This document shows positions 8,771 through 62,269 of a stretch of 64,000 nt of DNA, piece after piece; the first letter of the stretch is position 1, and the number at the start of each line of letters is the position of its first letter. Source of the stretch: a virus; IMG/VR virus record IMGVR_UViG_3300037504_001427, positions 1 to 64,000 of that record. One strand, written 5' to 3'. A program made the translations under genes and the position numbers. The notes beneath the pieces were generated by a model. It was not told the DNA's origin and ran no database searches. It worked only from the letters and a program-made list of their open reading frames with translations.

Positions 8771-9253
8771 ATGTCCGATCTTCAGATGCCTCAGCAGGTC
8801 CAGAATGCTCTCCGGCAGGGTGCCGGCGACGCCGCGCTCGCCATGATGTTGGCGTCGCTGCGACAGACGATGCTGGATGTCGGCGGGGAGTATCCCGCCA
8901 GCAATGTGATGCCGTACTCCTATGCGTTCACGACCACGCTCGATGCGGACTCCTCGGGCACAGCATCCATCCGCATCACGGCAGACGCTGCGTTCATCGC
9001 GCGTTTCGTCACCGGCACCTCAGACGGCAGCTACACGATTCTGCCTCGTGTCGACGCCTCTGACCGCCAGCTCAGCAACGTGGCGCTCAACGACACGCTG
9101 TTCGTTGGCACCGCCGAGCGCCCTTTCCCGCTGGGCAAGCCGCTGCTGCTGCCGGCGAACTCCACGATCAGCTTCGACCTGGCTGATCTGAGTTCGGCCG
9201 AGAACAAGATCTACTTCTCTCTGCACGGGTACAAGGTCTACGGCACTCTCTGA
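8771..9253 (+). CDS. Beta-rich putative virion protein (small jelly-roll candidate)
   Basis: A 160-residue protein. After a helical start (QQVQNALRQGAGDAALAMML) it is almost wholly beta-strand, with polar turns: YSYAFTTTLDADSSGTASI, then PLGKPLLLPANSTISFDLAD and a final IYFSLHGYKVYGTL. No enzyme motif, signal or membrane segment is present. It follows its own promoter and opens the cluster of membrane-anchored proteins. Its build resembles the 193-residue protein at 20195. Both could be single jelly-roll capsid proteins, which is inference from composition and context only. Confidence 0.6.
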   Translation: MSDLQMPQQVQNALRQGAGDAALAMMLASLRQTMLDVGGEYPASNVMPYSYAFTTTLDADSSGTASIRITADAAFIARFVTGTSDGSYTILPRVDASDRQLSNVALNDTLFVGTAERPFPLGKPLLLPANSTISFDLADLSSAENKIYFSLHGYKVYGTL

Positions 9254-9297
9254 CTCGTCAAAAAGGACGATCCCACGGCGCCACGAAAGGCAGCACC

Positions 9298-9474
9298 ATG
9301 CGACGGAAAAGAAAGAGCAATACCGCGGGCAGGAAACGCAAGGGCACGTCCCCGATCAGCATCCCCAAAGGGCTACGCAAGGGTGACAGATTCGCTCGTG
9401 GTGGTGTGTCCTACCGTGTGGTGAGCTACGTCACACAGGACGGCAAGCGCATCCGCTACGCGCGCCGGATCTGA
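9298..9474 (+). CDS. Very basic small protein, 58 residues
   Basis: The ATG at 9298 is followed by 58 codons with more than a quarter Lys/Arg: MRRKRKSNTAGRKRKGTS at the start, then a beta-like YRVVSYVTQDGKRIRYARR end. The TGA at 9472 stands two bases before the next ATG. Likely binds nucleic acid or packs with the genome; the family is not recognised. Ribosome site: AAAGGCAG eight bases upstream. Confidence 0.65.
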   Translation: MRRKRKSNTAGRKRKGTSPISIPKGLRKGDRFARGGVSYRVVSYVTQDGKRIRYARRI

Positions 9475-9476
9475 GC

Positions 9477-10118
9477 ATGTTCAACGACCCAACTCGTTAC
9501 CCCGGCCACCCTTTCCCTGGCTCCCCCGCCAAGCCGGCTATTGTGCGCGATCGCTCGTCGGCGCGGAATCGGTTGTTCAATCTGCCGGAGACCGCGCCCG
9601 AGCCGGAGAGCGATCGCGAGAAGCAGGCCTTCGCGCTGCTGAAGCAAATGGCCTACTTCCTGGCCACCACCAACTTCACGGTGGCATTGCCGACACACAA
9701 CGAGCCGCATTTCTGGTCCCGGCCCATCGATCTGAGCAACACCGTCACAATCGCCGCGGCGGTGAGTCCGACATGGACCACCATAGTGGAATACGAGGTG
9801 CAGGATGGCTCGGCGGCCCGCATCAGCGGCTACGGGGTGACGGCAGAAAGCGGGTACACCTACGATGGCTCGATACTATTTCGCATCGTGGTCGATGATG
9901 CCCCGGTCGGGCTGAGCAACTGGGCCGAACAGCGCGGCAGTGTGGTACAACCGCGTGAAACCTTCATCAATCTGCCCAAGGTCGGGCAGACGGTGAAATT
10001 CCAGGCGCGTCGCGCCGTCCTCGCCGCCAGCCCCACTGATGTCACGGCCGCCTTGGTCGGGTGGACCTACCGTCCGCTACGGCGCATGGACGGTCCCGCG
10101 AATTCCACGCCGCAATGA
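9477..10118 (+). CDS. Beta-rich putative virion protein
   Basis: A 213-residue protein. The first 70 residues are Pro-rich and extended (PTRYPGHPFPGSPAKP), and the rest is predicted beta: VTIAAAVSPTWTTIVEYEVQDG, SGYGVTAESGYTYDGSILF, VKFQARRAV. It has no membrane segment, unlike most of its neighbours. Composition and place, directly behind the 160-residue protein, suggest a structural role such as spike, vertex or capsid component. Function not established. Confidence 0.65.
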   Translation: MFNDPTRYPGHPFPGSPAKPAIVRDRSSARNRLFNLPETAPEPESDREKQAFALLKQMAYFLATTNFTVALPTHNEPHFWSRPIDLSNTVTIAAAVSPTWTTIVEYEVQDGSAARISGYGVTAESGYTYDGSILFRIVVDDAPVGLSNWAEQRGSVVQPRETFINLPKVGQTVKFQARRAVLAASPTDVTAALVGWTYRPLRRMDGPANSTPQ

Positions 10119-10405
10119 AGTCCTACCCCGCCATGTCCTACGCCGCCGCCCACCGCTGGGAACCAGAGGCGGCGCGCCGCGGTGTCTCCAAGGTCGCGCG
10201 CGGCCGCGGCGGCTTCATGCGAGCATACCAAAAGGCCGGGCGTTTTTCGAAGCTGTCGGACGAATGGAAGCGCAAGCGGGCCGGATTCATCGCGCGCCAC
10301 TTGGCACAGGCCAAAGGCGAACGGCTGTGGAAAAACGGCGAGCCCAGCAGGCGCGCGCTTGCCCTCATCATGTGGGCCTATATGCCGAGGAAGCGCCGCC
10401 GTTGA
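10115..10405 (+). CDS. Basic small protein
   Basis: A 96-residue protein starting at the ATGA overlap with the previous gene (10115). It has about 25 Arg/Lys residues and ends MPRKRRR. The central part (DEWKRKRAGFIARHLAQAKG) should be helical. Unrecognised. Basic, helical proteins in virion clusters often contact nucleic acid, but there is no direct sign here. A longer frame starting at 10061 lacks a ribosome site. Confidence 0.65.
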   Translation: MKSYPAMSYAAAHRWEPEAARRGVSKVARGRGGFMRAYQKAGRFSKLSDEWKRKRAGFIARHLAQAKGERLWKNGEPSRRALALIMWAYMPRKRRR

Positions 10406-10429
10406 GATTCTGCTGGAGGTTGGTATCCT
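10402..10429 (+). promoter_or_regulatory. Possible promoter, TTGAGA-N16-TATCCT
   Basis: Boxes at 10402-10407 and 10424-10429 with the 16-bp spacing seen elsewhere. The next ATG (10436) is so close that the transcript would be nearly leaderless, so this may be chance. Confidence 0.3.
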
Positions 10430-10435
10430 CTCAGC

Positions 10436-10690
10436 ATGAACGCTGACGAACTCCGCCAAATGTTCGAGCGCCCCGCAGGCCGCAGCGAGAGGTCTGTCGC
10501 TGTGCAGCCGCAGACGGTCAAGACACAACCGCCGGTCAAGCCGCAGCGGGCGCCGCCCCCTCCCCCAGAGGCCGACCTCATCGAGAGCGAGCCTCTGCAG
10601 CAAGAAGAGGCTCGCCAAGGCCCTCCGTGGCCATGGATGCTGCTCGGCGCGGGCATCGTGCTCTGGATACTCTGGTCGTCAAAGCGATGA
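10436..10690 (+). CDS. Small protein with C-terminal membrane anchor
   Basis: An 84-residue protein: polar and proline-rich up to residue 60, then WPWMLLGAGIVLWILWSS and the basic end KR. One membrane helix at the extreme C-terminus with a short positive tail is the pattern shared by many proteins in this cluster. It overlaps the next gene by ATGA. No enzymatic motif. Probably a membrane-anchored virion or assembly protein (inference). Confidence 0.7.
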   Translation: MNADELRQMFERPAGRSERSVAVQPQTVKTQPPVKPQRAPPPPPEADLIESEPLQQEEARQGPPWPWMLLGAGIVLWILWSSKR

Positions 10691-11856
10691 CCTTCCCTGT
10701 CCGCTGCACGCTGGGTGCCACTGACGTTCCGTGGTTCATCCCCGAAGAGCAGCGGGAGGCATGGCTCGCGCTTCCTGCAAAGGAGAAGCAGCGACGGATC
10801 GCGACGCAGGCTGCGATGCTCACCAGCTATGGGGAACAGATAATCGCGGCCATGCAAAAAGGCGGACGTGCCCAGAAGTGGGCCAAGAAGCAGGCCAAGC
10901 GTATCCAAGAGCGTGTCATGCGCGAAGCAATCAACACGGCCATCGTGCAGATCGTGGTGCACCTGGTTCTCAGCGCCACGGTCATCGGTTCGATCATCTC
11001 CGTTGGTCTGAGCGCGTACCAATCCTACAAAATGGAGAAGATCAAGAAAAAGATCAAGCAAGAGACCAAAGAAGCTGTGCGGTACCTGACAGAGTACCAG
11101 GAGCAGCGGCAAGCGGACCTCTACAAAGCATTGAGCAAAGCCTACCAGCGCGCCTACCCGGCGGCCATCCGCTTGGCCTTGAGCACCGAGCCAGTACCTG
11201 AAGATGCGGTCGAGGAATTCCGCGAGAAGATGAAAGAGGCCGCGCGTCCGGTATCCACCCGCGGACTATCCGGCTGGGCCAGCGGCTTCAAGAAGGTGAT
11301 CAATAAGGCCAAGCAGGCCGGAAAAGGTATTGCCCGCGGGGCAAAGAAGGTCTTCCGCTCCTCCTCGGGCTACGACCAGACAAAAAACGTCACCGACAGC
11401 GTCAATGAGCGCATCAAGCAGATCGTTCCCGAGGGAATCTACGAAGGCCTCGAGCAGTTCGTCAACCCGGCGGAGCACGCCTCGGGTTTCGTAGACCGTA
11501 TGACCGGCGAGGAAGTCTACCAGGCTGCGAGTGCCGAAATCAAGAAGCTGCGCGAAGGCCTCAAGAAACGCATCGACGCCAGTTACGAGCCTCTCCTAGC
11601 GGCCATCCGTAGCGAGGAATTCGATGCGATCATGGCGCGCATGGTGGCGAGTTACATCCGCAGCATGCCGGAGTTCCAGATCGTGCTGCAGGAATACATC
11701 CCGCCTCCGTCTGACTACGAGAAGGCTGTGCAAGACCCTGAATCCCCCGCCTACGACCCCGCCATCGCAGCGCTGTTTGCGAAATACCAAATCCCCCTTA
11801 TCATCGGCGCCGCAGCACTCTTCGGTGTTGCGCTGCTATGGAGAGCGCGCAAATGA
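10687..11856 (+). CDS. Large helical membrane-anchored protein
   Basis: A 389-residue protein starting at the ATGA overlap. It is mainly alpha-helical. An internal hydrophobic stretch near residue 85-115 (VVHLVLSATVIGSIISVGLSAY) is followed by a Lys-rich helix (KMEKIKKKIKQETKEAV), and a final membrane segment PLIIGAAALFGVALLWRARK closes the protein. It may span or line a membrane twice. The middle has basic low complexity (GFKKVINKAKQAGKG). Unrecognised; probably a membrane-associated virion protein. Confidence 0.7.
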   Translation: MTFPVRCTLGATDVPWFIPEEQREAWLALPAKEKQRRIATQAAMLTSYGEQIIAAMQKGGRAQKWAKKQAKRIQERVMREAINTAIVQIVVHLVLSATVIGSIISVGLSAYQSYKMEKIKKKIKQETKEAVRYLTEYQEQRQADLYKALSKAYQRAYPAAIRLALSTEPVPEDAVEEFREKMKEAARPVSTRGLSGWASGFKKVINKAKQAGKGIARGAKKVFRSSSGYDQTKNVTDSVNERIKQIVPEGIYEGLEQFVNPAEHASGFVDRMTGEEVYQAASAEIKKLREGLKKRIDASYEPLLAAIRSEEFDAIMARMVASYIRSMPEFQIVLQEYIPPPSDYEKAVQDPESPAYDPAIAALFAKYQIPLIIGAAALFGVALLWRARK

Positions 11857-12776
11857 CTGCATTTCCCATCGTGTCCCGGACAGTCCTGCGAGGTGGCTCA
11901 GCCTACGTCCTCGGCGATCTCACGGCGGAGATCGCCTCCTCTCGTGCCCGCTCTTATGTTGCGAAGGGGAAGATCCTTCCGGGAGTACAGAAAGAGATCC
12001 AGGAGCAGGAGAAGCAGATTCGCCGGGCGGAGCACCTGATCCAGCAACTGCGCTCCTCGGGCTGGGTCCGCGTGGATGGCAAGAAACGGACTAGGGTCGT
12101 CGTGGATGGCATAAAATATAGCCGACACGGCATACTGGGGTACTACGGCACAGGGCGTCGTGGTTGGAGCAGCAACGGACAGGGAAGGCGCAGACTAAAG
12201 GACGATCTCAACAAAAAGATCGCCGTGCTGCGCAAGCGAATCGCACTCCTAAAGAAGAAAGAGGCCCCAGACAAGGCCTTCGCCGGCGAAACCATCTGGA
12301 ATGTGGTGCATAAGGGAAACTACAAGGGCTGGCGCACAGACCTGCAGAGCAAGCTCGGAAAGACGCATGATCTCTCCGCCGTGCTGCAAGCTGCCTCAGA
12401 GATGAAAGCCATGAGCGACTCGCTCAAAGCGCAGGAGAAAGAGGCCGCGCTGCAGACCATCGAGGACCAGCGGCAAGCCGATGCCGAGCGTGCAATGGAA
12501 GAATTGAGGGAGGAGGCCGCGCTGCAGGCCATCGTGGCGCAGCAGAGGCAGCAGCAACCTCATATCCCCTCCCCGGAAGAGCGGGCCTGGCAGCAGTCGC
12601 TCATCAAGAATGCGGCGGCCACGGTGCGCAAGCCGCAGCAATCTCCTCGCGGTCCACAGCCGGCCGCAGTACGCAAGCCGCCGCAAACACCTGCCGTACC
12701 GTGGGCAAAATACAAGACACCGATCCTACTGGGCGCTGCGGCAACCCTCGTCGGAGCTTTCTTGTTGCTCAAGTGA
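11853..12776 (+). CDS. Coiled-coil protein with C-terminal membrane anchor
   Basis: A 307-residue protein starting at the ATGA overlap at 11853. Residues 45-70 (QKEIQEQEKQIRRAEHLIQQL) and 115-140 (LNKKIAVLRKRIALLKKK) are strong coiled-coil candidates. A third acidic helix near residue 195-240 (EKEAALQTIEDQRQADAERAM) precedes a Pro/Gln-rich linker and the anchor TPILLGAAATLVGAFLLLK. Extended stalk plus anchor architecture. Unrecognised; likely part of a membrane-associated virion complex. Confidence 0.7.
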   Translation: MTAFPIVSRTVLRGGSAYVLGDLTAEIASSRARSYVAKGKILPGVQKEIQEQEKQIRRAEHLIQQLRSSGWVRVDGKKRTRVVVDGIKYSRHGILGYYGTGRRGWSSNGQGRRRLKDDLNKKIAVLRKRIALLKKKEAPDKAFAGETIWNVVHKGNYKGWRTDLQSKLGKTHDLSAVLQAASEMKAMSDSLKAQEKEAALQTIEDQRQADAERAMEELREEAALQAIVAQQRQQQPHIPSPEERAWQQSLIKNAAATVRKPQQSPRGPQPAAVRKPPQTPAVPWAKYKTPILLGAAATLVGAFLLLK

Positions 12777-12815
12777 TATGTCGCCTTAGCGTGCAGACAT
12801 CCGAGGAGTAGTAAC

Positions 12816-13325
12816 ATGCCGATTCATCTCATCGTCGCCCAAGTAGCGGGCAATCGCCCAACATTCGCCACACGCTGCGGACTGCATGTGCACCCCAACG
12901 CCAACGTGCCTGCTCAGCAGGTAATTGGCAAGCCCACGCGGGTCGGCGTCGGAGACGAACCGTGCCCAGACTGCTTCCCTCCCAGCAATGCCGCAGACCA
13001 GCGGGCTGTCGCGCCTACCTATGACGAGAAGGGCCAGGCATGGGGCGCCGCCTACGAAGAGCCAATGACCGACAACGCCGGCAGGCGCATCGCAAAAACG
13101 GTGAATGATGTCGTGGTCAATAAAACGGAGATCGAGGAAGGCGGGATGGGCCAAGACTACATCGATGATCCCTACGGTGCCTCCTACGAACTCCAGCGGG
13201 CCGAGCGAGCAGGACAAGAGGCCGCACGTTCCGGCAAGACACGCGCTTCGTGTCCCATCGCGAAGGACTGTCCCGTGCGTCGTGCGTGGCTCATAGGCTT
13301 CGACAAGATGCAGCGGCTCCTCTGA
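12816..13325 (+). CDS. Cysteine-containing hypothetical protein
   Basis: A 169-residue protein; CGAGGAGTAG precedes the ATG at 12816. Cysteines occur at CGLHVHP, CPDCF and SCPIAKDCPVR, so a metal site is possible. No membrane segment. Bases 13075-13110 inside this gene (encoding NAGRRIAKTVND) recur exactly at 38027-38062 inside a glycine-rich unit, which makes this gene the apparent donor of a copied fragment. Function unknown. Confidence 0.7.
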   Translation: MPIHLIVAQVAGNRPTFATRCGLHVHPNANVPAQQVIGKPTRVGVGDEPCPDCFPPSNAADQRAVAPTYDEKGQAWGAAYEEPMTDNAGRRIAKTVNDVVVNKTEIEEGGMGQDYIDDPYGASYELQRAERAGQEAARSGKTRASCPIAKDCPVRRAWLIGFDKMQRLL

Positions 13326-13340
13326 CGCGGAGGTGCGCCT

Positions 13341-13610
13341 ATGAGTTGGACCCGATGGCTCGCTGGCGGCACAACACGCTCGGCCAGCGTCGCGTTTATG
13401 AAGCGGCTCCAGGCTATCGTTCCCGCGCATATCGGCGTTGAGCTGGAATGCGCAGGAAACTCAGTGTGCATCACCTGGCATTATATCCTCAACGGGCAGC
13501 CCCGCACCTATGTGCACCAGACGGTGCTGGAACGTCTGGACCACGACCTGAGCCTCCTGGAAAAAGAACTGCCCGCACGGCTCCTCCAGATGCGTCTTGA
13601 GGACGTGTAG
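13341..13610 (+). CDS. Small hypothetical protein
   Basis: An 89-residue protein with GGAGGTGC ahead of the ATG at 13341. It begins MSWTRWLAGGTTRSAS, has a central beta part (SVCITWHYILNGQPRTYVH) and a helical acidic end (LERLDHDLSLLEKELPARL). No motif recognised, no membrane segment. It forms part of the plus-strand virion-like cluster. Confidence 0.65.
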   Translation: MSWTRWLAGGTTRSASVAFMKRLQAIVPAHIGVELECAGNSVCITWHYILNGQPRTYVHQTVLERLDHDLSLLEKELPARLLQMRLEDV

Positions 13611-13619
13611 CCGGTTCTA

Positions 13620-13647
13620 TTGCTCTGCTGTCTCTTCTGCGTATCAT
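13620..13647 (+). promoter_or_regulatory. Promoter TTGCTC-N16-TATCAT
   Basis: Boxes at 13620-13625 and 13642-13647; the ATG of the next gene lies 20 bases downstream behind CAGGAGG. Confidence 0.5.
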
Positions 13648-13666
13648 AGACGCAGGAGGATCCGGC

Positions 13667-14278
13667 ATGGGTTATCTGGGCACAGAACTAGGCACGGAGC
13701 TAGACTCAGCCGTTAAGCGCCTGCGACACATCAATAAGGGGGCCATCTACCGCGAGGTGCTGCAGATGTCCCCGCAAGAACGTGTGGCCTATCGCAAACG
13801 CCTGCTTGCGATGTATGCAACTCTGCCTCCAGCCAAAAAACAGCAGTTCAAGGCGCTTCTGAATCGCGTGCGCAGAGACTGGGATGCCCGGAGTACAGGC
13901 CTCGGCAGCGGGGCCAGCACTGTCGCCACCATCGCGCAATTGGCCGTGACCGTCGGCACCCTCTACATCGGATACAAGCAATACGAGGACGAGAAGAAGT
14001 TTCGGAAAGAAGAGGCGAAGCGCAAGAAAGAGATGCTGGAAAAGCAGCTCAAAGCCGAAGAAAAAGAACGGAAACGAAAAGCCGCTCTGGAAAAGCAGCG
14101 CTTGGCGATGCTTGAAAAACAACTCAACCAAGAGCAGGCGCAGAGCGCCTCCAGCGCGCAGGCCGCGTCTGGTATTACCGCGACCACGGGGTTGTCCTCG
14201 ACGACGCTGCTGATACTCGGCGGGGTCGGCCTCGCGGGCTTGGGCGCCGTCTTCCTGCTCACAGGTAAGCGCCGATGA
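13667..14278 (+). CDS. Coiled-coil protein with two membrane segments
   Basis: A 203-residue protein with a strong ribosome site (CAGGAGGATC) ahead of the ATG at 13667. After a basic helical N-terminus comes a hydrophobic stretch (TIAQLAVTVGTLYIGY), a Lys/Glu coiled coil of about 60 residues (EKKFRKEEAKRKKEMLEKQL), then an Ala/Ser linker and the C-terminal anchor LLILGGVGLAGLGAVFLLTG followed by KRR. A typical member of the membrane-anchored set here. Unrecognised. Confidence 0.7.
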   Translation: MGYLGTELGTELDSAVKRLRHINKGAIYREVLQMSPQERVAYRKRLLAMYATLPPAKKQQFKALLNRVRRDWDARSTGLGSGASTVATIAQLAVTVGTLYIGYKQYEDEKKFRKEEAKRKKEMLEKQLKAEEKERKRKAALEKQRLAMLEKQLNQEQAQSASSAQAASGITATTGLSSTTLLILGGVGLAGLGAVFLLTGKRR

Positions 14279-14523
14279 CCAAGATGCGTCCGGTGCTGTA
14301 CCAAAACAGCAACCCGCTCTTCTCTTTCGCCATTCCTGCGCGAGACGTGGTAGACGTGCGCAGGACACGGCGGCCTGTGGCTTCGCGGCGGGTGGTGCGC
14401 ATCCCGGCCGGTAGATATCGGCACCCGCAGCTTGGAGAAGCAAAAGCCCTTCAATACTCGACTGCGGCAGGTATCATTGCCGCAGCAGTCACCCTCTTCT
14501 GCCTGACAAGGACCACACGATGA
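14275..14523 (+). CDS. Small membrane-anchored protein
   Basis: An 82-residue protein starting at an ATGA overlap. The N-terminal part is basic (VRRTRRPVASRRVVRIPAG). The C-terminal segment TAAGIIAAAVTLFCLTRT is hydrophobic and likely spans a membrane, again with a short basic end. It overlaps the next gene by ATGA. No function assigned. Confidence 0.65.
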   Translation: MTKMRPVLYQNSNPLFSFAIPARDVVDVRRTRRPVASRRVVRIPAGRYRHPQLGEAKALQYSTAAGIIAAAVTLFCLTRTTR

Positions 14524-14825
14524 GATACAAGCACCCCAGCGGCAAGATCTACACATCCAAGCAGATGAAGCGGATGTTCCGCGGCAAACTGCCCTCGCCC
14601 GCCACCCGCAGACTGCTCGGCTACACCGATGTCAAAGAGTCGGCCAAGCCCAAGACGGCCAAGTCCAAGACGGCCAAGTCCAAGCGCAATCCGACATGCG
14701 GCGCCAAGCGCAACCCGCCGCTGACGCCGGCCCAGAAAAGGGCCCTGCACAACGCCTCGATCTGCAAAGCCCTCTCCGGCAACACCAAGCGCAGCCTGAA
14801 AGCGATCATCAAGAAGCACCGATGA
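14520..14825 (+). CDS. Highly basic small protein with KTAKS repeats
   Basis: A 101-residue protein starting at an ATGA overlap. It starts MRYKHPSGKIYTSKQMKRMF and contains a KPKTAKSKTAKSKRNP repeat that resembles the lysine-rich tails of histone-like proteins, then a helical basic end (TKRSLKAIIKKHR). Probably binds DNA. No membrane segment. Overlaps the transglutaminase-like gene by ATGA. Confidence 0.65.
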   Translation: MRYKHPSGKIYTSKQMKRMFRGKLPSPATRRLLGYTDVKESAKPKTAKSKTAKSKRNPTCGAKRNPPLTPAQKRALHNASICKALSGNTKRSLKAIIKKHR

Positions 14826-16480
14826 CCAACGGGAACATCAACATCCAGCGTTCTCCTCTGCCGCCAGGCGAGGCCGGCGTCGACCGCACCATCTCCAAGA
14901 TGGTCGAGTTGGCAAGGGGGCACTATGGCGCCAAAAACCCCAAGGTTCGGGCGCTAGCGCTGGATGTCGTCCGCAGGCGTGCCGCGGAGAAGGATTACCG
15001 CGGGGAAGCCATCGCCCTCTTCAACTATGTGCGCGACAACATCCGATATCTCCGCGATCCGATCGATCAGGAAACGGTCAGCGCCCCGGAAGAGACGGCG
15101 TTCAATTCGCGGGCGGGCGATTGTGACGATCAGGTCACACTCCTCATGGCGCTCCTCGGCTCGATCGGTATCCCGTCCTATCCGGTTGTGGTCGGAAAAA
15201 CCCGCGGGCACTACTCACACGTCTATCTTCGGGCCGTCATCCCTCCGGCCGGCGAAGTAATCGCCATGGATCCCATCATGCGAGGGTGGCCTGCAGGCCG
15301 CGAGGCAAAGCTGCCTGCGGTCAAAGCCTACTCGCACTACGCAGCAGGAGTCCCTATGAACATCGACGGCTTGGGCGATTACAAGACGGGGCCGAGCTAC
15401 CTCGACACCGAAAACAGCCATGCTGCAGAACTGCTGAAGACGCAGCGCACGCCATCACGTCCGGTCATTCAGGGCAGTCAGGTGGACGGTCTCGGCTCCA
15501 ACGAAGCCTCAGTCGAGGCCGAAGGATTCGACACCTACGCCGGGCAGCCGGGGTCGTTCACCACGGCCAAGCAGGACCAGTTCGGTCGCAATGACCTGCA
15601 GTCGCCTCCCATCATACCGGCCGAAAACCTCGGCCCCCTCGGTCCCATGACCAGTCGTGGGGAACGTCTTATGTCCGCCGAGCTGCCTGTGCGCAGGGAC
15701 CAGCGGGTTCCGGTGTGGGGTGCGGGCGTACCTCGAGGACAACTCCGCAAGCGTAACCCGCAGGTGACCGTGCCGGGCATGCGGCAAGCGCACAATCGTC
15801 GGGCCTTTGCGCCCCTGAGCCGCTCTCCCGAGCAGGAGGCGGCAGAACTCGACGGCATTGGCGCCTGCCTAGCCGACTTGGCATACCAGTGCTCGGGAAT
15901 GGGCGCTGACGTGTCGAAAAAGCAGCAGGACAAAGCCCGTGGTGTCGGCGTCCTCACCAAGATCAAGGAGCAGTTGACCCGACTGTTCGCTGCGCGTGCG
16001 CAGAAGTACGAGCAGCAGGCCGCAGCCCACGGTGTTTCTCCGGGCCTGCGTGGGCGACTGCGTTCCCTCACGGCACAGGCGCGAGCGCTGGCACAGAAGG
16101 CCGCCTCCCTCGCGAAGACGGCCGAATCAATCTGCACTTCCCTGAACGTGAAACCGGCGCCTCTCAGCGAAGAAGAGGTCCGCGTTGTGCACGAGATCGA
16201 GGCGCAAGAAACGCCTGTGGGGAAGGGTGCACAGAAGCGCAAGGCCGAAGAAAAGATCGCAAAAACCGCGGACGTGACGAAAGTCGCCATCGAGCCCGGC
16301 CCTCGCCTCCACTACAAGGGCACGGTCAATCGGGTCACCGACCCAAACACGCGCTCCATCACGCCTGCGCCTGCGCACACCGTGTCTGGCCTGCAGGAAA
16401 CCGTCGGCAACCCCTACATCTTCATCCCAGGCGCCCTGCTGCTGGGATACATGGGCTACGCCCTCTTCAAAGGTGCCTAG
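14822..16480 (+). CDS. Transglutaminase-like cysteine protease-fold protein with membrane anchor
   Basis: A 552-residue protein. Residues 20-170 match the transglutaminase-like core: FNYVRDNIRYLRD, then SRAGDCDDQVTLLMALLGSI with the nucleophile Cys near 101, a His near 130-133 (GHYSHVYL) and an Asp near 149 (AMDPIM), giving the expected Cys-His-Asp triad. These domains hydrolyse or cross-link peptides. A disordered middle, a helical region with SLTAQARALAQKAASL and the final segment IFIPGALLLGYMGYALFKGA follow. The membrane anchor makes it likely to act at the membrane of a virion or host. It is the largest gene of the cluster. Confidence 0.75.
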   Translation: MTNGNINIQRSPLPPGEAGVDRTISKMVELARGHYGAKNPKVRALALDVVRRRAAEKDYRGEAIALFNYVRDNIRYLRDPIDQETVSAPEETAFNSRAGDCDDQVTLLMALLGSIGIPSYPVVVGKTRGHYSHVYLRAVIPPAGEVIAMDPIMRGWPAGREAKLPAVKAYSHYAAGVPMNIDGLGDYKTGPSYLDTENSHAAELLKTQRTPSRPVIQGSQVDGLGSNEASVEAEGFDTYAGQPGSFTTAKQDQFGRNDLQSPPIIPAENLGPLGPMTSRGERLMSAELPVRRDQRVPVWGAGVPRGQLRKRNPQVTVPGMRQAHNRRAFAPLSRSPEQEAAELDGIGACLADLAYQCSGMGADVSKKQQDKARGVGVLTKIKEQLTRLFAARAQKYEQQAAAHGVSPGLRGRLRSLTAQARALAQKAASLAKTAESICTSLNVKPAPLSEEEVRVVHEIEAQETPVGKGAQKRKAEEKIAKTADVTKVAIEPGPRLHYKGTVNRVTDPNTRSITPAPAHTVSGLQETVGNPYIFIPGALLLGYMGYALFKGA

Positions 16481-16481
16481 C

Positions 16482-16511
16482 TTGACAAACACTACCCCAA
16501 CGCCCCATAAT
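16482..16511 (+). promoter_or_regulatory. Promoter TTGACA-N18-CATAAT
   Basis: A consensus -35 box TTGACA at 16482-16487 and CATAAT at 16506-16511. It lies in the 135-base gap ahead of the gene at 16616. Confidence 0.6.
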
Positions 16512-16615
16512 GCGGCCATGATGTCTGGAGCGAGACATCAACGGTGCTCTGGGCATCCTGCTCAGAGCTTTCACCCACTGCTCCTAGTGAGCTAAATAGG
16601 ATCGGAGGCTGGCAC

Positions 16616-17257
16616 ATGGCAGTCATTCCCATCGCGCACCAAGTCGCCCGGCCGATGTCCAAGCCCGTCGTGCAGACAGCGGTCACCCCACATCCGGTGG
16701 ATCTCCGGCCGGCTGGGAACACTGTCGCGCTGACCGCGCCCTCGGACAACCCGTTCGATCAGAATCGCCCGATCACGGTCAAGACGCAGGCATCCGGAGG
16801 CGGCTCGGTCGCACCGAACGGTTCCCGTTCGCTGATGACCAAGCACATCCCAGGCGTGGGCGAATCGCCGAACGCCGTGAACCAGGGCGTACCGTTCGCT
16901 CTCGGCGAAGAGGAGGAAGAGGGCCCGACCTGGGTGACGGCTGTGCAGGCCATCACCGGGGCTGCATCGCAGGTCCTGACCTCCAGCGATCAAGCCAAGA
17001 TCGAGGCCGCCCGCGCACGCGCGGAGGCGGCCCGCGCTGAGGCCGCCGGGGAAGAGGCGCGCGCTGCCGAGGCGCGTGCGCGGGCAAACGCCCTGATGCC
17101 CTCCTACAACACCGCGGTGCGCGGCACCAGCTATGGGCTCTGGGCCGTCGGTCTGGGTCTTCTCGGGGTCGTCGGGTACTTCATGTACCAGAATTCCAAG
17201 AAGAAGGGCGTCGGCCTGACGGGCCGCAAGCGCCGGAGTCGGAGTCGCAGACGATGA
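16616..17257 (+). CDS. Helical protein with C-terminal membrane anchor and arginine tail
   Basis: A 213-residue protein; ATCGGAGGC precedes the ATG at 16616. An extended N-terminus with Pro-rich tracts leads to an acidic patch (GEEEEEGP). Next comes an Ala/Arg/Glu helix of about 50 residues (IEAARARAEAARAEAAGEEA), then GLWAVGLGLLGVVGYFMYQN as membrane segment. It ends in a strongly basic tail RKRRSRSRRR. The build is that of a stalked membrane protein with its positive end near nucleic acid. Confidence 0.7.
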   Translation: MAVIPIAHQVARPMSKPVVQTAVTPHPVDLRPAGNTVALTAPSDNPFDQNRPITVKTQASGGGSVAPNGSRSLMTKHIPGVGESPNAVNQGVPFALGEEEEEGPTWVTAVQAITGAASQVLTSSDQAKIEAARARAEAARAEAAGEEARAAEARARANALMPSYNTAVRGTSYGLWAVGLGLLGVVGYFMYQNSKKKGVGLTGRKRRSRSRRR

Positions 17258-17775
17258 AATTCCTCAGTCCTTCCCCTGCGTCTGGGGCCTTCCTTCGTCG
17301 GCGCCATGCTCGCGCCATTCCGATGCGACAGCCGGTGGTTCGCATGTCGAAGCCCGCCGTGTGGCCGCTCACCAGGAACGCCGTGGGGCGCATCCGCGTC
17401 TGTCGTCCCGCCCCAGAAAGCGGCAACGAAGTGAACGGCCTCGGAGAAGCCGAGGAAGCCGCGCCGGCCGAGTGGTCTGTCGCCGTCAGCGAAGGGGCAA
17501 AGGGCCTGTTCAACACCTGGATGAACTACGAACAGACCAAGGACGCCCGCAAACAGGCGGAATATGATGCCAGAGAAGCGGAGCGTATCGCCGCCCATCA
17601 GCGTGAGCTGGCGCGCCAAGAAAGCAGCATCAGCCAGCAGGCAGAATTGCTGGCCTTGCGTCTGCAGGAGCAGCGCCAGGCCAAAAAGGGCACCGTCCCC
17701 GGTGGCAGCATGTTGCTTCCGCTCGGAATCGGAGCCGGTATCCTCGCCCTCTCGGCATTCTACTTCCTCAGGTGA
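17254..17775 (+). CDS. Helical protein with C-terminal membrane anchor
   Basis: A 173-residue protein starting at an ATGA overlap with the gene before. The N-terminus resembles that of its upstream neighbour (RHARAIPMRQPVVRMSKPAV beside SKPVVQTAV). A helix of about 60 residues (ARKQAEYDAREAERIAAHQR) follows, then the anchor MLLPLGIGAGILALSAFYFLR. The two neighbours share domain order and may be distant duplicates. Unrecognised. Confidence 0.7.
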   Translation: MKFLSPSPASGAFLRRRHARAIPMRQPVVRMSKPAVWPLTRNAVGRIRVCRPAPESGNEVNGLGEAEEAAPAEWSVAVSEGAKGLFNTWMNYEQTKDARKQAEYDAREAERIAAHQRELARQESSISQQAELLALRLQEQRQAKKGTVPGGSMLLPLGIGAGILALSAFYFLR

Positions 17776-17781
17776 CCAACC

Positions 17782-18072
17782 ATGCAGCGCGATCTCAGCT
17801 ACGCCCTCGATTCCACGCTCGCCGGCCGTAACCAGGGCCAGCTCGTCAGCCAGCAGGTAGTCCAGACGCGCATGTCGCGTGTCCCTGGCCTGCAGCCTCT
17901 CGCCGCGGGCGCGCCGCGTCCGATGCTGGGGCCTGCCAACCCGGCGGCGGCTGTGTCCGGTCTGGGATTTCTTGATCCCAACAAGATCGACGGCAAGTGG
18001 CTCATGGCCGGCATCGGGCTGGTGGCCCTGATCTGGGTCATCGGTATGAGCGGCGGCAAAAAGAAGCGCTGA
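17782..18072 (+). CDS. Small protein with C-terminal membrane anchor
   Basis: A 96-residue protein starting at 17782. The first 60 residues are polar and proline-rich, then KWLMAGIGLVALIWVIGM spans the membrane and SGGKKKR forms the basic tail. The stop overlaps the next start as TGATG. Another member of the single-anchor set. Confidence 0.7.
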   Translation: MQRDLSYALDSTLAGRNQGQLVSQQVVQTRMSRVPGLQPLAAGAPRPMLGPANPAAAVSGLGFLDPNKIDGKWLMAGIGLVALIWVIGMSGGKKKR

Positions 18073-18617
18073 TGCCAGCGGGCATGCTCCAGCTCGGTAG
18101 GCTGCTCCTGCTGGAGGTACACACCGCCAAAGACGGACTCGTCGTCATCACCCCGAGACAACGAAGTATGCTCGGCCGCGCCATGAAGGGGACGTCCCTC
18201 GCCTGGGGCACTCTCGGCAGAGCGCGCCCTGAGTTGCATGTGTGCCGGATCCTCGGCAAAGCAAAAGCCGGCACCTCCATTCCAGAAACGCTGTCCCAGG
18301 CCCATGAAGAGTTCCATGGGGCATCCCCTACAGCCTTGGTCCGGGCCGAGTGCCCTACCGCTTCGTCGCGCTGTAAGCGCGTCGGCTTGGTCTCGGCGAT
18401 TGGCTATAAGGCCGTAGGAATAACCAGTCCGGTCAAGTCGACCGACAATTGGCGCCACATCTTCGGAGATACGGGACACAGCGGAAACGAAGACCAGCCG
18501 AAATCAAAAATGCCGGAATTGTTGTACGACGGCAAGAGCCTGTTCATTCGCCGGCGGCGCGGAAACACATACACCGTTGCGCTCTATGATGACGGGCACG
18601 CTTGGATCATCGGCTGA
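18072..18617 (+). CDS. Hypothetical soluble protein
   Basis: A 181-residue protein whose ATG at 18072 overlaps the previous stop (TGATG). It begins MPAGMLQLGRLLLLEVHTAK, has mixed alpha/beta character and ends in a beta-rich stretch (LLYDGKSLFIRRRRGNTYTV, ALYDDGHAWIIG). There is no anchor, in contrast to its neighbours. Unrecognised; no catalytic motif is apparent. Confidence 0.65.
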   Translation: MPAGMLQLGRLLLLEVHTAKDGLVVITPRQRSMLGRAMKGTSLAWGTLGRARPELHVCRILGKAKAGTSIPETLSQAHEEFHGASPTALVRAECPTASSRCKRVGLVSAIGYKAVGITSPVKSTDNWRHIFGDTGHSGNEDQPKSKMPELLYDGKSLFIRRRRGNTYTVALYDDGHAWIIG

Positions 18618-18624
18618 AAAACAT

Positions 18625-18652
18625 TTGCCGCTAAAAGACGGCTGACTATACT
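18625..18652 (+). promoter_or_regulatory. Promoter TTGCCG-N16-TATACT
   Basis: Boxes at 18625-18630 and 18647-18652, starting eight bases after the preceding stop codon and about 80 bases before the ATG at 18735. Confidence 0.6.
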
Positions 18653-18734
18653 GCCCTCAACGCATGCGAGCCTCCCTTCGGGTAGACGGCACGCAGTGTA
18701 CTAATCCACCCAGCAAGAAGAAAGAGGGACCACC

Positions 18735-20060
18735 ATGCCCGAGGTCTTTTTGTCGAATCCTGGGATGGAACTCGCCATCCTCGGAAACCCTCCAGGAGGC
18801 CGCTCCATGCGTAAGAGCCGCAAGAGCCGCAGGCAAGCGAAGCGTATCGCTTATTACGTCAATCCGCGCTCCTCTGTGATCTCCAGTATCGGCCGGGAGT
18901 TCGGCTACACTGGGGGCGACACGGTCAAGAAAATCGGCCGGCGTAAAAAGAGCGCCAAGCAGAGCGCCTCCGCTGCGCGCCGCTTCAAAGCCGTCCGTAG
19001 CATTCGTGCGGGCAGCAAAAAAGGCAAGGTCAAGCGTATCGGAACTCGCCGCCGCACCTCCATCCGGCCAAAGGACGATAATGCGTTCTTCGGCTATCGT
19101 CGTACCACCACCAAACGCCCCACCAAGGGGAAAGGGAAGAAGTCCATGGCCAAGACCAAGACTCGCAAGGCCCCGAAGCGTCGCGGGCGCAAGACTCTGC
19201 CGAAGAACGCAGCACGCGTCGGCTGGAAAAGGCGCAGCCAGAAGGTCGGCAAGACCTACAGTGGCAAGCGCGGAAGCATCCGCGTCGATCGCAAGCGCAA
19301 GAGCACCAAGGGTCGCAAGCGTGCGAAGCGCGCGCCCTACGGCATCGTTCCTCGCACCGGCAAGAAGGGCACCGTCACCTACCGCGGTCGCTTCTACAAG
19401 AAGGGGAAGCGGGGGTCGCGTCGCGTCTATTTCACGAACCCGGCCAAGATGATCACCGGCTACACCAACACCCTGATGGCGGCGCCGATGGACATCGTGC
19501 GCGAACTCAGCGGCAAGAACATGATCATGAATGCCGCCTACATCAGTGGCGGTACGCTGGCCACCTACTTCGCTGGCCAGCTCGTGCAGAACCTGCTGAC
19601 CAACGTGCCGGGTGTGAACACCGTCATGGAAAATCCGATGGCCAACCGCGTCATCACGGCAGCCATGCCGTTCTCGGTCGGCTATCTGGCCAGCGGGTTC
19701 GTCAAGAACAACAAGATCAAGAAGGCGATGGTCCTCGGCGGCGCGGCTGCCTCCATCGTGACTCTGATCTGGCCGAGTGGCCTGCGTGACGTGCTGTCCT
19801 ACCTCGGCCTCGGGCAGATGCTGAACGGCGCCGACATGCTCGCCGGCTATGTCGCCGCCCCCGGCTACCAGGGTGTCGGTGTCAACGGCTACGTCGAAGC
19901 ACCGAGCTACCAGGGTGTCGGCGGAAGCGAGATGCTTCCCGGCATGGGCAACGACGACCTGCTCGCCGGCTACGTCGAGGACGCCGGCTATCGTGGTGCC
20001 GCGCTGAACGGCTACCTCGACCAGCCTGGCTACCTGGCCGAAGCCAGCTACCTGGCCTGA
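18735..20060 (+). CDS. Histone-like basic protein fused to a membrane region and YxGxG repeats
   Basis: A 441-residue protein; AAGAGGGACC precedes the ATG. The first 230 residues contain very many Lys and Arg (RKSRKSRRQAKR, TKRPTKGKGKKSMAKTKTRK), like DNA-condensing proteins. From about 235 to 355 several hydrophobic segments occur (AYISGGTLATYFAGQLV, KKAMVLGGAAASIVTLIW). The C-terminus holds imperfect repeats with GYVAAPGYQGVG, GYVEAPSYQGVG and GYVEDAGYRG. It could link the packaged genome to a virion membrane. It has its own promoter, suggesting large amounts. Unrecognised as a family. Confidence 0.7.
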   Translation: MPEVFLSNPGMELAILGNPPGGRSMRKSRKSRRQAKRIAYYVNPRSSVISSIGREFGYTGGDTVKKIGRRKKSAKQSASAARRFKAVRSIRAGSKKGKVKRIGTRRRTSIRPKDDNAFFGYRRTTTKRPTKGKGKKSMAKTKTRKAPKRRGRKTLPKNAARVGWKRRSQKVGKTYSGKRGSIRVDRKRKSTKGRKRAKRAPYGIVPRTGKKGTVTYRGRFYKKGKRGSRRVYFTNPAKMITGYTNTLMAAPMDIVRELSGKNMIMNAAYISGGTLATYFAGQLVQNLLTNVPGVNTVMENPMANRVITAAMPFSVGYLASGFVKNNKIKKAMVLGGAAASIVTLIWPSGLRDVLSYLGLGQMLNGADMLAGYVAAPGYQGVGVNGYVEAPSYQGVGGSEMLPGMGNDDLLAGYVEDAGYRGAALNGYLDQPGYLAEASYLA

Positions 20061-20194
20061 CCGATCATATCGGGCTGCGCAGTCCGAATTTCGGGAAGTA
20101 GGCTGCTCGCAGAAGTTCTGCGGGAGTGTCCAGACGAACCCCACCGCTCCACAACCAACCCAGAGGGCGAAAATCCCTCTTCAGGAGAAGCATC
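20061..20194 (+). promoter_or_regulatory. Structured 5' leader of the 193-residue virion-like protein
   Basis: The gap holds two small hairpins, CCGAT-CAT-ATCGG right after the stop codon and GCAGAAGTTCTGC near 20111, then TCAGGAGAAG as ribosome site. No promoter with good boxes was found. Confidence 0.35.
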
Positions 20195-20776
20195 ATGCCC
20201 GTTTTCCGCAGTGTGCAGGACGCGCAGGCCGGTGAGGTCAAGCTCGAGGCTCTTCACCAGCCGATCTACGACGAACAGACCATCACCTCCGCGACGGACT
20301 ATTCGTTCTTCCAGAATCCGGCCGGCCGCAGCGAGCTGTTGACCAACGTCAACACCGCCGGTCAGCTTTCGTGGCCGAAGCGCTTCAGCGTCAAGGCCAT
20401 CCGTCTGGTGCTGGACTTCGACACCGAAGTCGCATCAGCGGTGCTGATCTACAAGAACACCCTGTTCCGCCTGAAGGTCGGCGAGAAGAACTATCTCACC
20501 ATTCCGGCCTTCATGCTGACGCCGGGCGTCGGCCTCGAGGTGTACAACACCTGGGATCTGGCGATCGCTCGCGCTTCGAACCCGCCGACCGTGTACGCCC
20601 ACAACGGTCGTCCCGAACACCGCAACATCTACTCGCTGATCCACGCGGTCTACATCCCGCCGGTGCAGAACTTCTCTGCGACCCTGTCCGTCACGGGCAC
20701 GGTGACCGCGCTGCCGACCGCGGGCATCCGCTCCTGGCTGTTCCTGGAAGGCGAGCTGCTGCGCGAAGTGCAGTGA
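20195..20776 (+). CDS. Putative major capsid-type protein, beta-rich
   Basis: A 193-residue protein. The ATG at 20195 has TCAGGAGAAG seven bases upstream; the open frame before it has no ribosome site. It is nearly all beta: QLSWPKRFSVKAIRLVLDF, SAVLIYKNTLFRLKVGEKNY, PGVGLEVYNTWDLAIA, then FSATLSVTGTVTAL and a final IRSWLFLEGELLREVQ. The last-gene position before a strong terminator, with a good ribosome site, fits an abundant structural product. Small all-beta proteins of this size form single jelly-roll capsids in membrane-containing viruses such as P23-77; that comparison is mine and unverified. Confidence 0.65.
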   Translation: MPVFRSVQDAQAGEVKLEALHQPIYDEQTITSATDYSFFQNPAGRSELLTNVNTAGQLSWPKRFSVKAIRLVLDFDTEVASAVLIYKNTLFRLKVGEKNYLTIPAFMLTPGVGLEVYNTWDLAIARASNPPTVYAHNGRPEHRNIYSLIHAVYIPPVQNFSATLSVTGTVTALPTAGIRSWLFLEGELLREVQ

Positions 20777-20834: not shown

Positions 20835-20847
20835 CATTTGGCGCTTG

Positions 20848-54406: not shown

Positions 54407-54906
54407 TTATTGTGATCACCAACAAGCGAGGCTTGTTGGTACACCCTCTGCAGCAGACTTCCAGGCTGGAGATCCTTCCTCGGGCAGCACCGGGTCCGGG
54501 GGAGGATTTCGCATTGGGCCTACGTTACTTCACGGCGCCCACACACAACACACCTGACGGCTGGGCCTTCAATTTTGTGCATGGGGTATCACTACCGTTC
54601 TTGTCGGCCACACAGCCACCGCTGGAGGGGTTGAGAAAAGTCGCGGATGCCCTGCTCCAGATCGGCCCTGATGGCAAGGTCCTCGGGGAGGCGGAGCGCG
54701 TCTTCGGACTGCTGCGCAATCAAGAGCAGTCGGTAGAGCAATCGGTTTTTGACCAGGCGTGGAAGGACCTATCTCGTCTCTTCCGGCTTTATAGGCTGCT
54801 CTGCCAGCGCATTCTGGAGCAGGCCGAGGGCACGGTCCCCTTGGAGGAACCATTGAAGTATGTTCTCCGGATCGACCTTCTCACCGGCGGAGGAAGAGCA
54901 GGATGA
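54403..54906 (+). CDS. Hypothetical protein
   Basis: A 167-residue protein with GTG start overlapping the previous stop (GTGA at 54403). Its start is beta-rich (MIIVITNKRGLLVHPLQQTS), with ALGLRYFTAPTHNTPDGWAF, then a helical second half (DQAWKDLSRLFRLYRLLCQR). Its last 26 bases overlap the end of the minus-strand gene at 54881. Unrecognised. Confidence 0.65.
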   Translation: MIIVITNKRGLLVHPLQQTSRLEILPRAAPGPGEDFALGLRYFTAPTHNTPDGWAFNFVHGVSLPFLSATQPPLEGLRKVADALLQIGPDGKVLGEAERVFGLLRNQEQSVEQSVFDQAWKDLSRLFRLYRLLCQRILEQAEGTVPLEEPLKYVLRIDLLTGGGRAG

Positions 54907-55210
54907 AGCCGAGGGCTGCCGCGACACCGAGGGCAGCACCAGCGGCGGATCCGCCAGCCTCGATGTAGTTGACCTCGGAGAAGTCCTCCGCCAGTCCAAC
55001 TTGCTTGGGATCTTGGTTTCCCGAACGCAGGATCAGGTCTGCGGGACGCCCACCGAGCGAGGAGTCTTCTCTCCGGTGCGCCCCCGCCCGGAGTTTCTGC
55101 ATCGAACGCAGCGTCTGCGTATGGACGGCGCCGCCGCTTCGGATGCCGTTGTTGATCTCTTCCAGCGTCGCTTGGCCGAATTCCTGCGGGATGTTCCTGG
55201 TGGGGGTCAT
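54881..55210 (-). CDS. Small protein with C-terminal membrane anchor
   Basis: A 109-residue protein. A polar helical N-terminus (MTPTRNIPQEFGQATLEEIN) and a linker are followed by GGSAAGAALGVAAALGFILLFLRR, whose hydrophobic part spans a membrane with an Arg-Arg end. The architecture equals that of the proteins at 10436-18072, although it lies in the other virion-like operon. Coupled with the upstream gene by ATGA. Confidence 0.65.
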   Translation of the reverse strand: MTPTRNIPQEFGQATLEEINNGIRSGGAVHTQTLRSMQKLRAGAHRREDSSLGGRPADLILRSGNQDPKQVGLAEDFSEVNYIEAGGSAAGAALGVAAALGFILLFLRR

Positions 55211-56297: not shown

Positions 56298-56549
56298 TCA
56301 GGAGGTGTAAAGCAGAAAGGCGGTGATCGCCGCGCCGGCAAAGAGCACCTTCCATGGGACCGTGCCACGCGCGGTTTCTTCCACTGTGGCAGGCGCAGCA
56401 TCCGATGCCAGAACGGAGCGTGTGGCGGAGGTCGAGAGAGGGCGCGGGGCCGGCATTTCCACACCGTGCGTCGCCCGCTCTGCGACCTGCGTGGTCACCC
56501 GAGTGGGCATGGGGGTCAGCATGAATTGGTCGGCGTGGTTGCTCAGCAT
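56298..56549 (-). CDS. Small protein with C-terminal membrane anchor
   Basis: An 83-residue protein: a polar Thr/Pro/Ala-rich N-terminal region, then TVPWKVLFAGAAITAFLLYTS as the membrane segment at the very end. The build is shared with the plus-strand membrane-anchored set. Unrecognised. Confidence 0.65.
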   Translation of the reverse strand: MLSNHADQFMLTPMPTRVTTQVAERATHGVEMPAPRPLSTSATRSVLASDAAPATVEETARGTVPWKVLFAGAAITAFLLYTS

Positions 56550-61759: not shown

Positions 61760-62269
61760 CTATCGGTTTTTTGCCGCTATCGCCAACCCCAAATCTGCCA
61801 GTTCGTCTTTCCCGAAGGTGAAGAGGCAAGGCAGGAACTTGTGATTGATTCGCGAAGCAGTTTTGGGGGGATTTCTGCACACCTTCAGGGGCAGGCCCCC
61901 CTGACGTGCGACCACACCGAAGAGCGGGGGAGGGAGATTCTCGCGCCAAGGCAGTGTATTGCCAAGCGCATGACGAAGGCGGCGCCGATAACTCGCAGCC
62001 GCCTCTGGCTTGGTGGAACTCACCTGGATGATGCCGCCTGGCGCCAGATGCTTGAGCCACGGCTCTGGATCCTGTTCCGTACTGAGGAGAATAGCATCCG
62101 CTCCGTTGATGGGGATGGATGTATCGACGGACACATCCTTCCATTTGGACACCTCTTCCTGCATCACTTCACGCTGTGGTCCAGCCACCAGTACACGGCT
62201 GTTGGGAGGCAAGTACAGCACAGGCAGCAGCCCCAAGCATTCCCGGAGACGGTGCGGACAGACCTGCAT
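61760..62269 (-). CDS. Hypothetical protein, possible methyltransferase-like fold
   Basis: A 169-residue protein. NSRVLVAGPQREVMQEEVSK, then ADAILLSTEQDPEPWLKHLA and PGGIIQVSS follow the strand-helix order of a class I methyltransferase, but the glycine-rich SAM loop is poor (VLVAGP). It may be a degenerate relative. TGATG-like overlap with the large gene upstream (62269). Function unknown. Confidence 0.5.
   Translation of the reverse strand: MQVCPHRLRECLGLLPVLYLPPNSRVLVAGPQREVMQEEVSKWKDVSVDTSIPINGADAILLSTEQDPEPWLKHLAPGGIIQVSSTKPEAAASYRRRLRHALGNTLPWRENLPPPLFGVVARQGGLPLKVCRNPPKTASRINHKFLPCLFTFGKDELADLGLAIAAKNR

Follow-up and report, generated by a model that had tools for sequence, protein, structure and literature searches.

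A circular 87.5-kb virus with clustered C-terminally anchored proteins, probably a tailless phage with an internal membrane

The virus of IMG/VR record IMGVR_UViG_3300037504_001427, known here from its genes alone, is most likely a tailless icosahedral dsDNA virus with an internal lipid membrane, similar to phage SSIP-1 at twice its size, in which anchored proteins link capsid and membrane. Together with its relatives, it appears to belong to a little-known group of tailless bacterial viruses with an inner lipid membrane and genomes of 87-110 kb. On the best reading, they form a new phage lineage without a tail, with an internal membrane and with single-jelly-roll capsid proteins, whose virion, membrane and topology we infer.

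The window analysed (64,000 nucleotides, positions 1 to 64,000 of the record) covers about three quarters of the circular 87,543-bp genome, and genes are named here by their start positions in it. Since an exact 96-b direct repeat stands at both termini of the record (~87.6 kb), an assembler overlap that fits circular DNA, the genome was read as circular dsDNA; a 110-b terminal repeat was found in relative G395. Scans of IMG/VR with the single proteins 20195, 14822 and 9477 returned 0-1 relative each, and the group was recovered only with profiles that included distant members. IMG/VR holds relatives of 95-110 kb (the largest figure given being 109.4 kb). Further relatives comprise two Planctomycetota MAGs and one provirus inside a 9.5-Mb Planctomycetota contig, which also carries a gp40-like ATPase of the SSIP-1 type. 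Through these MAGs and the provirus, the probable host is placed in the Planctomycetota. The bridging provirus, G109, encodes homologues of the putative capsid proteins MCP1 and MCP2 (E 6e-11 each to those of our virus), a transglutaminase-fold protein homologous to both that of our virus and SSIP-1 gp34, and an ATPase that resembles gp40 of SSIP-1 (1.6e-7), all close together.

C-terminal anchors in the putative virion module

The sequence-only reading had described the genes at 10436, 10687, 11853, 13667, 14275, 14822, 16616, 17254 and 17782 as ending in a hydrophobic helix, in most cases followed by Lys or Arg. This was borne out for all nine: each product has an 18-residue hydrophobic C-terminal segment, then a tail of 1-22 residues whose net charge is +1 to +11. 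On the plus strand, the first (10436..10690) ends in WPWMLLGAGIVLWILWSS followed by KR, and the next (10687..11856, 389 aa, tail RARK) possesses an additional internal hydrophobic stretch; its helix end is retained in the G394 homologue. The 307-aa product of 11853..12776 ends in K. Two proteins have a coiled-coil-like middle, namely those of 13667..14278 (tail TGKRR; anchor retained in the G394 and G395 homologues) and 17254..17775 (tail R, from segment prediction and homologue comparison). Small anchor proteins are encoded at 14275..14523 (82 aa, tail RTTR) and 17782..18072 (96 aa, tail GGKKKR), the latter having seven homologues and a longer tail in G394. The protein of 16616..17257 carries a basic tail of 22 residues and has homologues in all relatives examined. 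Pfam matches to Caldesmon, DUF4337 and the like were below cutoff and were rejected as low-complexity coiled-coil matches.

Three distant genes on the minus strand had been named alongside these nine. Two fit the description (54881..55210, 109 aa, tail RR; 62269..63621, 450 aa, tail K), but the third (56298..56549, 83 aa) has the helix with an uncharged tail, TS, such that a basic tail is present in 11 of the 12 genes named. The G394 homologue of 56298 ends in KPGKALLRKLKIA, and that of 62269 in a terminal helix and SRKKGKKAAP. The further claim of a single helix per protein held for the C-terminal helix, found in all, but a second hydrophobic segment is predicted in 10687, 13667, 14822 and 62269. 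The second segment of 14822 probably lies inside its transglutaminase-fold domain, in which case it is no membrane helix.

A C-terminal segment occurs in 14 of the 80 genes of the virus, more than chance would give (residue shuffles, n=300: mean 2.9, maximum 8). A similar excess was found in SSIP-1 (13 of 57 genes; shuffles 2.0, maximum 7), whereas phage lambda showed none (6 of 68; shuffles 3.4, maximum 7). Compared over whole genomes with lambda alone, the virus did not differ significantly (p = 0.15). Within the cluster at 8771-20776, however, 9 of 18 genes possess the segment, and outside it the count falls to 5 of 62 (Fisher p = 2e-4). Anchor ends are kept in 8/8 members of the transglutaminase family despite their differing sequences, and likewise in the diverged 16616 and 17782 families. 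The signal is thus one of clustering, basic tips and conservation rather than of the whole-genome count.

We propose that genes 8771-20776 form a virion module. Because the anchor proteins lack an N-terminal helix, those with one helix and a basic tip would be tail-anchored in the host membrane. Their N-terminal domains would remain on its shell-forming side, tying capsid to membrane as VP10 and VP13 of HCIV-1 do, while the short Lys/Arg tips would extend into the vesicle lumen, where they may bind DNA. The small anchor proteins thus probably tie the inner membrane to the capsid, with the N-domain at the shell and the basic tip towards lumen and DNA.

Candidate capsid proteins and a transglutaminase-fold protein shared with SSIP-1

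Structure prediction, proposed earlier for the beta-rich proteins, was applied to the 20195 product alone (20195..20776, plus strand, 193 aa), a putative MCP1-like major capsid protein also present in relatives. The AF2 model was all-beta (pLDDT 72.1, pTM 0.70), and its best PDB match in Foldseek was a Sulfolobus polyhedral virus 1 (SPV1) capsid chain (6oj0; E 9.6e-4, prob 0.99), with SH1 chains (6qt9) at ranks 5, 20 and 25. These matches are weak (TM 0.36-0.46), and other beta-sandwich proteins were also among them. Matches in BFVD were of mixed kinds; the highest query TM-score there, 0.55, belonged to I1ZBH9 (211 aa), which could be an SSIP-1 protein of that length and was left out of the evidence. 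An earlier AF2 model built from three sequences was poor (pLDDT 45.6), and its mostly viral jelly-roll Foldseek matches were discarded.

Profile searches gave no significant match. This was the outcome for three profiles run as HMMs against the PDB and for the MCP1 profile against SSIP-1 gp45 and gp46 (whose own capsid role is an inferred one); with hhalign, the 18735, 8771, 9477 and 72235 families likewise found no significant partner in SSIP-1 or lambda. Against 96 proteins, hhalign with the MCP1 profile placed gp46 top at a non-significant probability of 8.7%. For a double jelly-roll capsid, no Pfam or PHROG match to known capsid proteins was found, and the candidate has only 193 aa. The model and the conservation pattern suggest a single-jelly-roll shell in which the 20195 protein is probably joined by the 8771 protein.

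The latter (8771..9253, plus strand, 160 aa) is a putative second, MCP2-like capsid protein, with blastp identities of 57% to G394, 51% to G396 and 49% to G395. Its similarity to G109 is 27% identity (E 6e-11), and the homologue there is a tandem duplication adjoining that of MCP1. Downstream on the same strand lie a Lys/Arg-rich 58-aa ORF (9298..9474), a conserved 213-aa protein (9477..10118; 36-43% identity to three relatives) and a basic 114-aa ORF (10061..10405; DUF6321 below cutoff). The 213-aa protein, distantly similar to proteins at record positions 72235 and 71311, is possibly a beta protein of vertex or penton type. Directly upstream of the MCP1 gene, the conserved protein of 18735..20060 (plus strand) has a very basic N-terminal half, a hydrophobic core and C-terminal Gly-Tyr repeats; G109 has a similar repeat protein in the same position. 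The hhalign match of this family to SSIP-1 gp44 was suggestive by span and position only and was not significant. A further conserved protein (17997..18617, plus strand) adjoins 17782, and both it and the 18735 protein have homologues in L004, L005 and G394-G396. The 17997 start codon is uncertain, its first candidate overlapping 17782.

The only significant sequence link to SSIP-1 is provided by the 552-aa anchored protein of 14822..16480 (plus strand). This protein matched the transglutaminase family PF01841 (E 1.3e-8) and SSIP-1 gp34 (tblastn, 2e-5; blastp, 2.5e-10), which is annotated as a structural (virion) protein. The family thus combines homology to gp34 with a C-terminal helix, the anchor being present in all eight members. 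In the weakest step of our scheme, the protein may serve in entry or maturation as an enzyme that cleaves or cross-links peptide.

Packaging, alternative readings and significance

Terminase, portal and HK97-fold capsid genes, which the sequence-only reading had named as evidence against an internal membrane, were sought in the whole record and eight relatives. PF03237, PF04860 and PF05065 were absent from all of these, while positive controls matched, and none of the proteins tested had a match to PHROG families of heads or tails. The P-loop proteins of the virus comprise UvrD, SNF2 and D5-type helicases only, leaving no unassigned one to be a terminase. Together with the homology to gp34 and the SPV1 and SH1 matches of the 20195 model, this supports the internal-membrane reading.

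A tailed phage in which the three hallmarks have diverged too far to detect, and whose anchored proteins target the host envelope (for lysis, exclusion or receptor changes), is improbable. The large, circularly closing genome with a family A DNA polymerase, D5-type primase-helicase, 7-deazaguanine genes and genes for fibre-like proteins is of a kind common in tailed phages, but the absence of hallmarks from nine group records, the nine anchored genes beside conserved proteins and the homology to an SSIP-1 virion protein all argue otherwise.

Profile and P-loop scans also found no FtsK/HerA- or gp40-type packaging ATPase in the virus, and the gp40-type profile had no match in G394, G395 or G396. 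This, with the numerous membrane proteins, would suit an enveloped or pleomorphic vesicle virus lacking an icosahedral shell, its anchors being envelope proteins and its beta proteins spikes. We judge this marginally less probable still: the top PDB matches of the 20195 model are icosahedral capsid chains, in G109 MCP1 and MCP2 occur alongside a gp40-like ATPase, SSIP-1 is icosahedral, and anchors without an N-terminal helix would turn their main domains inwards. We consider it very unlikely that the membrane proteins build a secretion or surface structure of a satellite or plasmid-like element. The circular replicon, which encodes a serine recombinase and replication genes of its own, would suit such an element, but the gp34 homology, the capsid-like protein, the virion gene set of a related provirus and the lack of a conjugation family match among the part of the proteins scanned speak against it.

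Within the preferred reading of a tailless, internal-membrane virus, we tentatively raise a bolder, rather doubtful possibility: a Planctomycetota phage lineage of family level or higher with circular genomes of 87-110 kb, in which filling of the capsid needs no dedicated P-loop packaging ATPase and the membrane assembles around the condensed circular genome with the aid of the basic anchor tips. To our knowledge, this group would be the largest of its morphotype among known prokaryotic viruses. Most known phages of bacteria and archaea that combine an internal membrane with the lack of a tail have genomes of 9-44 kb (PMC6260650). If our reading is true, the upper genome size of such phages is roughly doubled, SSIP-1, long an orphan, gains relatives and the morphotype probably extends to Planctomycetota. 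Virus finders depend for the most part on terminase, portal and the capsids of tailed phages and so easily overlook such viruses, which can be sought with the MCP1 and transglutaminase-fold profiles. With no packaging motor apparent, how genomes of this size enter a membrane-lined capsid becomes a testable question.

Comparison with known internal-membrane viruses

The earlier likening to viruses with an internal membrane stood, but the families it named (tectiviruses, corticoviruses and P23-77) are not the closest: no Pfam or PHROG match to these was found among the proteins scanned. Sulfolobus polyhedral virus 1 (Portogloboviridae), an archaeal virus of ~20 kb, supplied the top PDB match of the 20195 model and shares no sequence similarity, the TM-score being just 0.36-0.46. 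The Thermus phages P23-77 and IN93 are bacterial, with an internal membrane, two single-barrel capsid proteins and genomes much smaller than that of our virus; neither was matched by tblastn of 14822, 16616 and 20195 in a phage collection. Their architecture has been placed in one group with that of SSIP-1 (PMC4958249).

The Sphaerolipoviridae (SH1, HCIV-1, HHIV-2) have two small capsid proteins, as proposed here, and membrane proteins with one C-terminal helix, of which VP13 and VP10 tie vesicle to capsid; in HCIV-1 both are small, possess C-terminal TM helices and lie between membrane and capsid (PMC6414509). Unlike the circular genome described here, theirs are linear, ~30 kb, with inverted terminal repeats (PMC12643093). 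They further differ in their FtsK/HerA ATPase and haloarchaeal hosts, and no sequence similarity was found.

SSIP-1, an unclassified dsDNA phage with an internal membrane, a T=49 icosahedral capsid and a circular 44-kb genome (PMC6260650, PMC6356626), is the closest. It differs in size (43.8 kb against 87.5 kb, with relatives to 109.4 kb, thus 2-2.5x), in its Salisaeta host (ours being probably Planctomycetota) and in possessing the ATPase gp40, not found in our virus, and its other structural proteins have no significant sequence similarity. Both, however, have circular dsDNA, a serine recombinase, small candidate capsid proteins, a homologous transglutaminase-fold structural protein (gp34) and a virion module rich in small proteins with a C-terminal helix, in SSIP-1 gp34, 36, 39, 41, 42, 50, 52, 53 and 54.

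Anchor proteins and their conservation

C-terminal anchors, each a hydrophobic helix with a Lys/Arg-rich tip, were sought in 80 curated genes of the complete virus genome (W). An 18-residue hydrophobic segment lying no more than 25 residues from the C-terminus was scored by a simple hydropathy rule in which we had reweighted the aromatic residues. All nine genes between 10436 and 18072 that the sequence-only reading had described as ending in a membrane helix and basic tail do so, with a net charge of +1 to +11 following the helix. Of the distant genes assigned to the same set, 54881 and 62269 fit the description, but in 56298 the helix is not followed by basic residues. C-terminal segments were present in 14 of 80 genes; 300 shuffles gave 2.9 on average and never more than 8. 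A stricter version of the predictor returned nine genes where 1.1 were expected. Such segments end 9/18 genes within the proposed virion module (8771-20776) and 5/62 outside it (p = 2e-4). The same excess was observed in SSIP-1, the closest known virus (13/57 genes). Phage lambda showed none, its 6/68 genes falling inside its shuffle range, and the direct whole-genome difference in helix count between W and lambda is not significant (p = 0.15).

Among eight members of the transglutaminase-fold family (14822 in W), the C-terminal sequences vary freely (LFKGA, LRKKAK, LFTRK, LLKNRK, FKRKRA, LKKRRAAAATA, LTRKNRK and IKRKRR), and helix and basic tip are retained in all eight. The 16616 and 17782 families follow the same pattern. 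The persistence of helix and tip while the sequences diverge points to selection on the anchor itself rather than to chance composition. The family member on a Planctomycetota MAG contig (L005:1480-4266) carries a long intein-like insert between the halves of its catalytic region.

Genome and relatives

The IMG/VR record comprises 87,639 bases, of which the window takes in 1-64000; the remainder was also fetched. Since its first 96 bases recur exactly at its end, W closes as an 87,543-bp circle (61.5% GC). Positions 1-6500 are GC-rich (65-72%), differ in AT skew, contain no recognised genes and are unlike the virion module in composition. A 194-base direct repeat (20841-21034 and 21040-21233; 95% identity) with inverted-repeat cores lies just 3' of the capsid-like gene. 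Likely 7-deazaguanine DNA modification genes occupy 30891-35435 (TGT/DpdA-like with DUF6884, QueC-like and GTP-cyclohydrolase-like), adjoined by a PAPS-reductase-like protein. Thirty-four short minus-strand ORFs (40-108 aa), frequently overlapping head-to-tail, fall within 26085-38600 and record positions 73000-80200. They begin (M)xYPVG, continue in Gly-Tyr/Phe-Asp/Asn repeats and mostly end in TVEGRR, TVAGRR or TVEAWR; a tRNA-Met gene (CAT) lies among them at 29125-29197. These ORFs are missing from the four relatives compared (G394, G395, G396 and G099).

The putative capsid protein MCP1 (20195, 193 aa) is 58% identical in two contigs, L004 from IMG/VR and L005. Searching 392 Planctomycetota genomes with a profile brought up G099 and G109, and profiles enriched with these yielded further IMG/VR loci on contigs of up to 109.5 kb. 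Gene content was compared with three large records: G394 at 95.0 kb, G395 at 109.5 kb, whose terminal repeat is 110 b long, and G396 at 96.8 kb, which is 98-99.98% identical to the MAG contig G099 across most of G099. Common to all three records and W are 8771, 9477, 14822, 16616, 17782, ~18000, 18735 and 20195 in the cluster, the recombinase 21986, 24137, 49236, 56578 and 61760 in the rest of the window, and 64875, 67173, 71311, 72235 and 81450 beyond it.

Capsid candidate and packaging

The AlphaFold2 model of MCP1, built from 16 sequences (pLDDT 72.1, pTM 0.70), is all-beta and can be read with moderate confidence as a single jelly roll, the fold proposed for it from sequence. In the PDB it matched a chain of Sulfolobus polyhedral virus 1 best (TM 0.36-0.46, E 9.6e-4, prob 0.99), and SH1 chains took ranks 5, 20 and 25; matches to a viral library were of mixed kind. 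In hhalign, SSIP-1 gp46 was the best of 96 proteins over 124 columns, a result that is not significant (prob 8.7%); gp45 and gp46 are mutual paralogues (prob 95). Some relatives encode additional, longer MCP1 paralogues with N-terminal extensions (L014:8574-10380, L029:7773-8822 and L024:6781-7632), possibly vertex or spike proteins; W has none.

Tailed-phage genes, whose discovery elsewhere in the element would have spoken against an internal-membrane virus, were sought as PF03237, PF04860 and PF05065. None was matched in W, in eight related records or in SSIP-1, while control genomes gave matches; nor did the large W proteins scanned match PHROG head or tail families. Judged by this gene content, W is very probably not a tailed phage. 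Canonical P-loops in W belong to a UvrD helicase, an SNF2 helicase and a D5-type primase-helicase. A profile of the SSIP-1 ATPase gp40 and its G109 counterpart recovered no homologue from W, G394, G395 or G396; its best hit, at E 0.96, was the D5-type helicase. The motor may be of an unrecognised kind, one of the helicases may fill the role, or the circular genome may be enclosed instead of being pumped.

Comparison with membrane-containing viruses

When 14822 was searched by tblastn against 50,697 phage records, the only matches were SSIP-1 gp34 (E 2e-5) and a weak one to a Methanobacterium virus; blastp among ORF sets gave 2.5e-10 for gp34. The annotation of gp34 as a structural protein makes 14822 a homologue of a virion protein. 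The same helix type ends SSIP-1 gp34, 36, 39, 41, 42, 50, 52, 53 and 54.

G109 comes from the same phylum as the L005 genome and includes a 9.5-Mb contig with virus genes near 3.85 Mb; being sited in a chromosome-sized contig, the element is taken as a provirus. There it encodes MCP1 (25%, E 6e-11 to W), MCP2 as a duplicated 8771 domain (27%, E 6e-11 to W), a transglutaminase-fold protein with matches to W (1e-8) and to gp34 (7e-12), a gp40-like ATPase (1.6e-7; PHROG 6891, 1.4e-12) and two more proteins with a C-terminal helix and basic tip. By these matches, G109 unites genes of W and of SSIP-1 within one element.

From such gene data we infer the morphology of the W virion, its membrane, the topology of its proteins, their DNA contact and the role of the enzyme. 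The anchor proteins would be tail-anchored in the host membrane. Their N-domains would lie in the cytoplasm, the site of shell formation, and once a vesicle had formed, the short basic tips would point towards the lumen and the DNA. If particle size scales with genome size, the 100 nm of SSIP-1 would translate into roughly 125-135 nm for genomes of 87-110 kb, as an estimate only. A literature search, whose coverage excluded most subscription journals and SSIP-1's own paper, found no paper describing such viruses.

In HCIV-1, VP13, with a single C-terminal helix, has been assigned to a membrane complex beneath the pentons, and VP10, also with a C-terminal helix, is a candidate membrane-proximal protein ordering capsomers (PMC6414509). 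Both share their plan with the anchor proteins of W, the latter known here from genes. SSIP-1 remains unclassified. This phage lacks a tail, has an internal membrane and T = 49, and its 44-kb genome is circular (PMC6356626, PMC6260650). W, as read from its genes, resembles SSIP-1 in its circular genome and its excess of helix-ended proteins.
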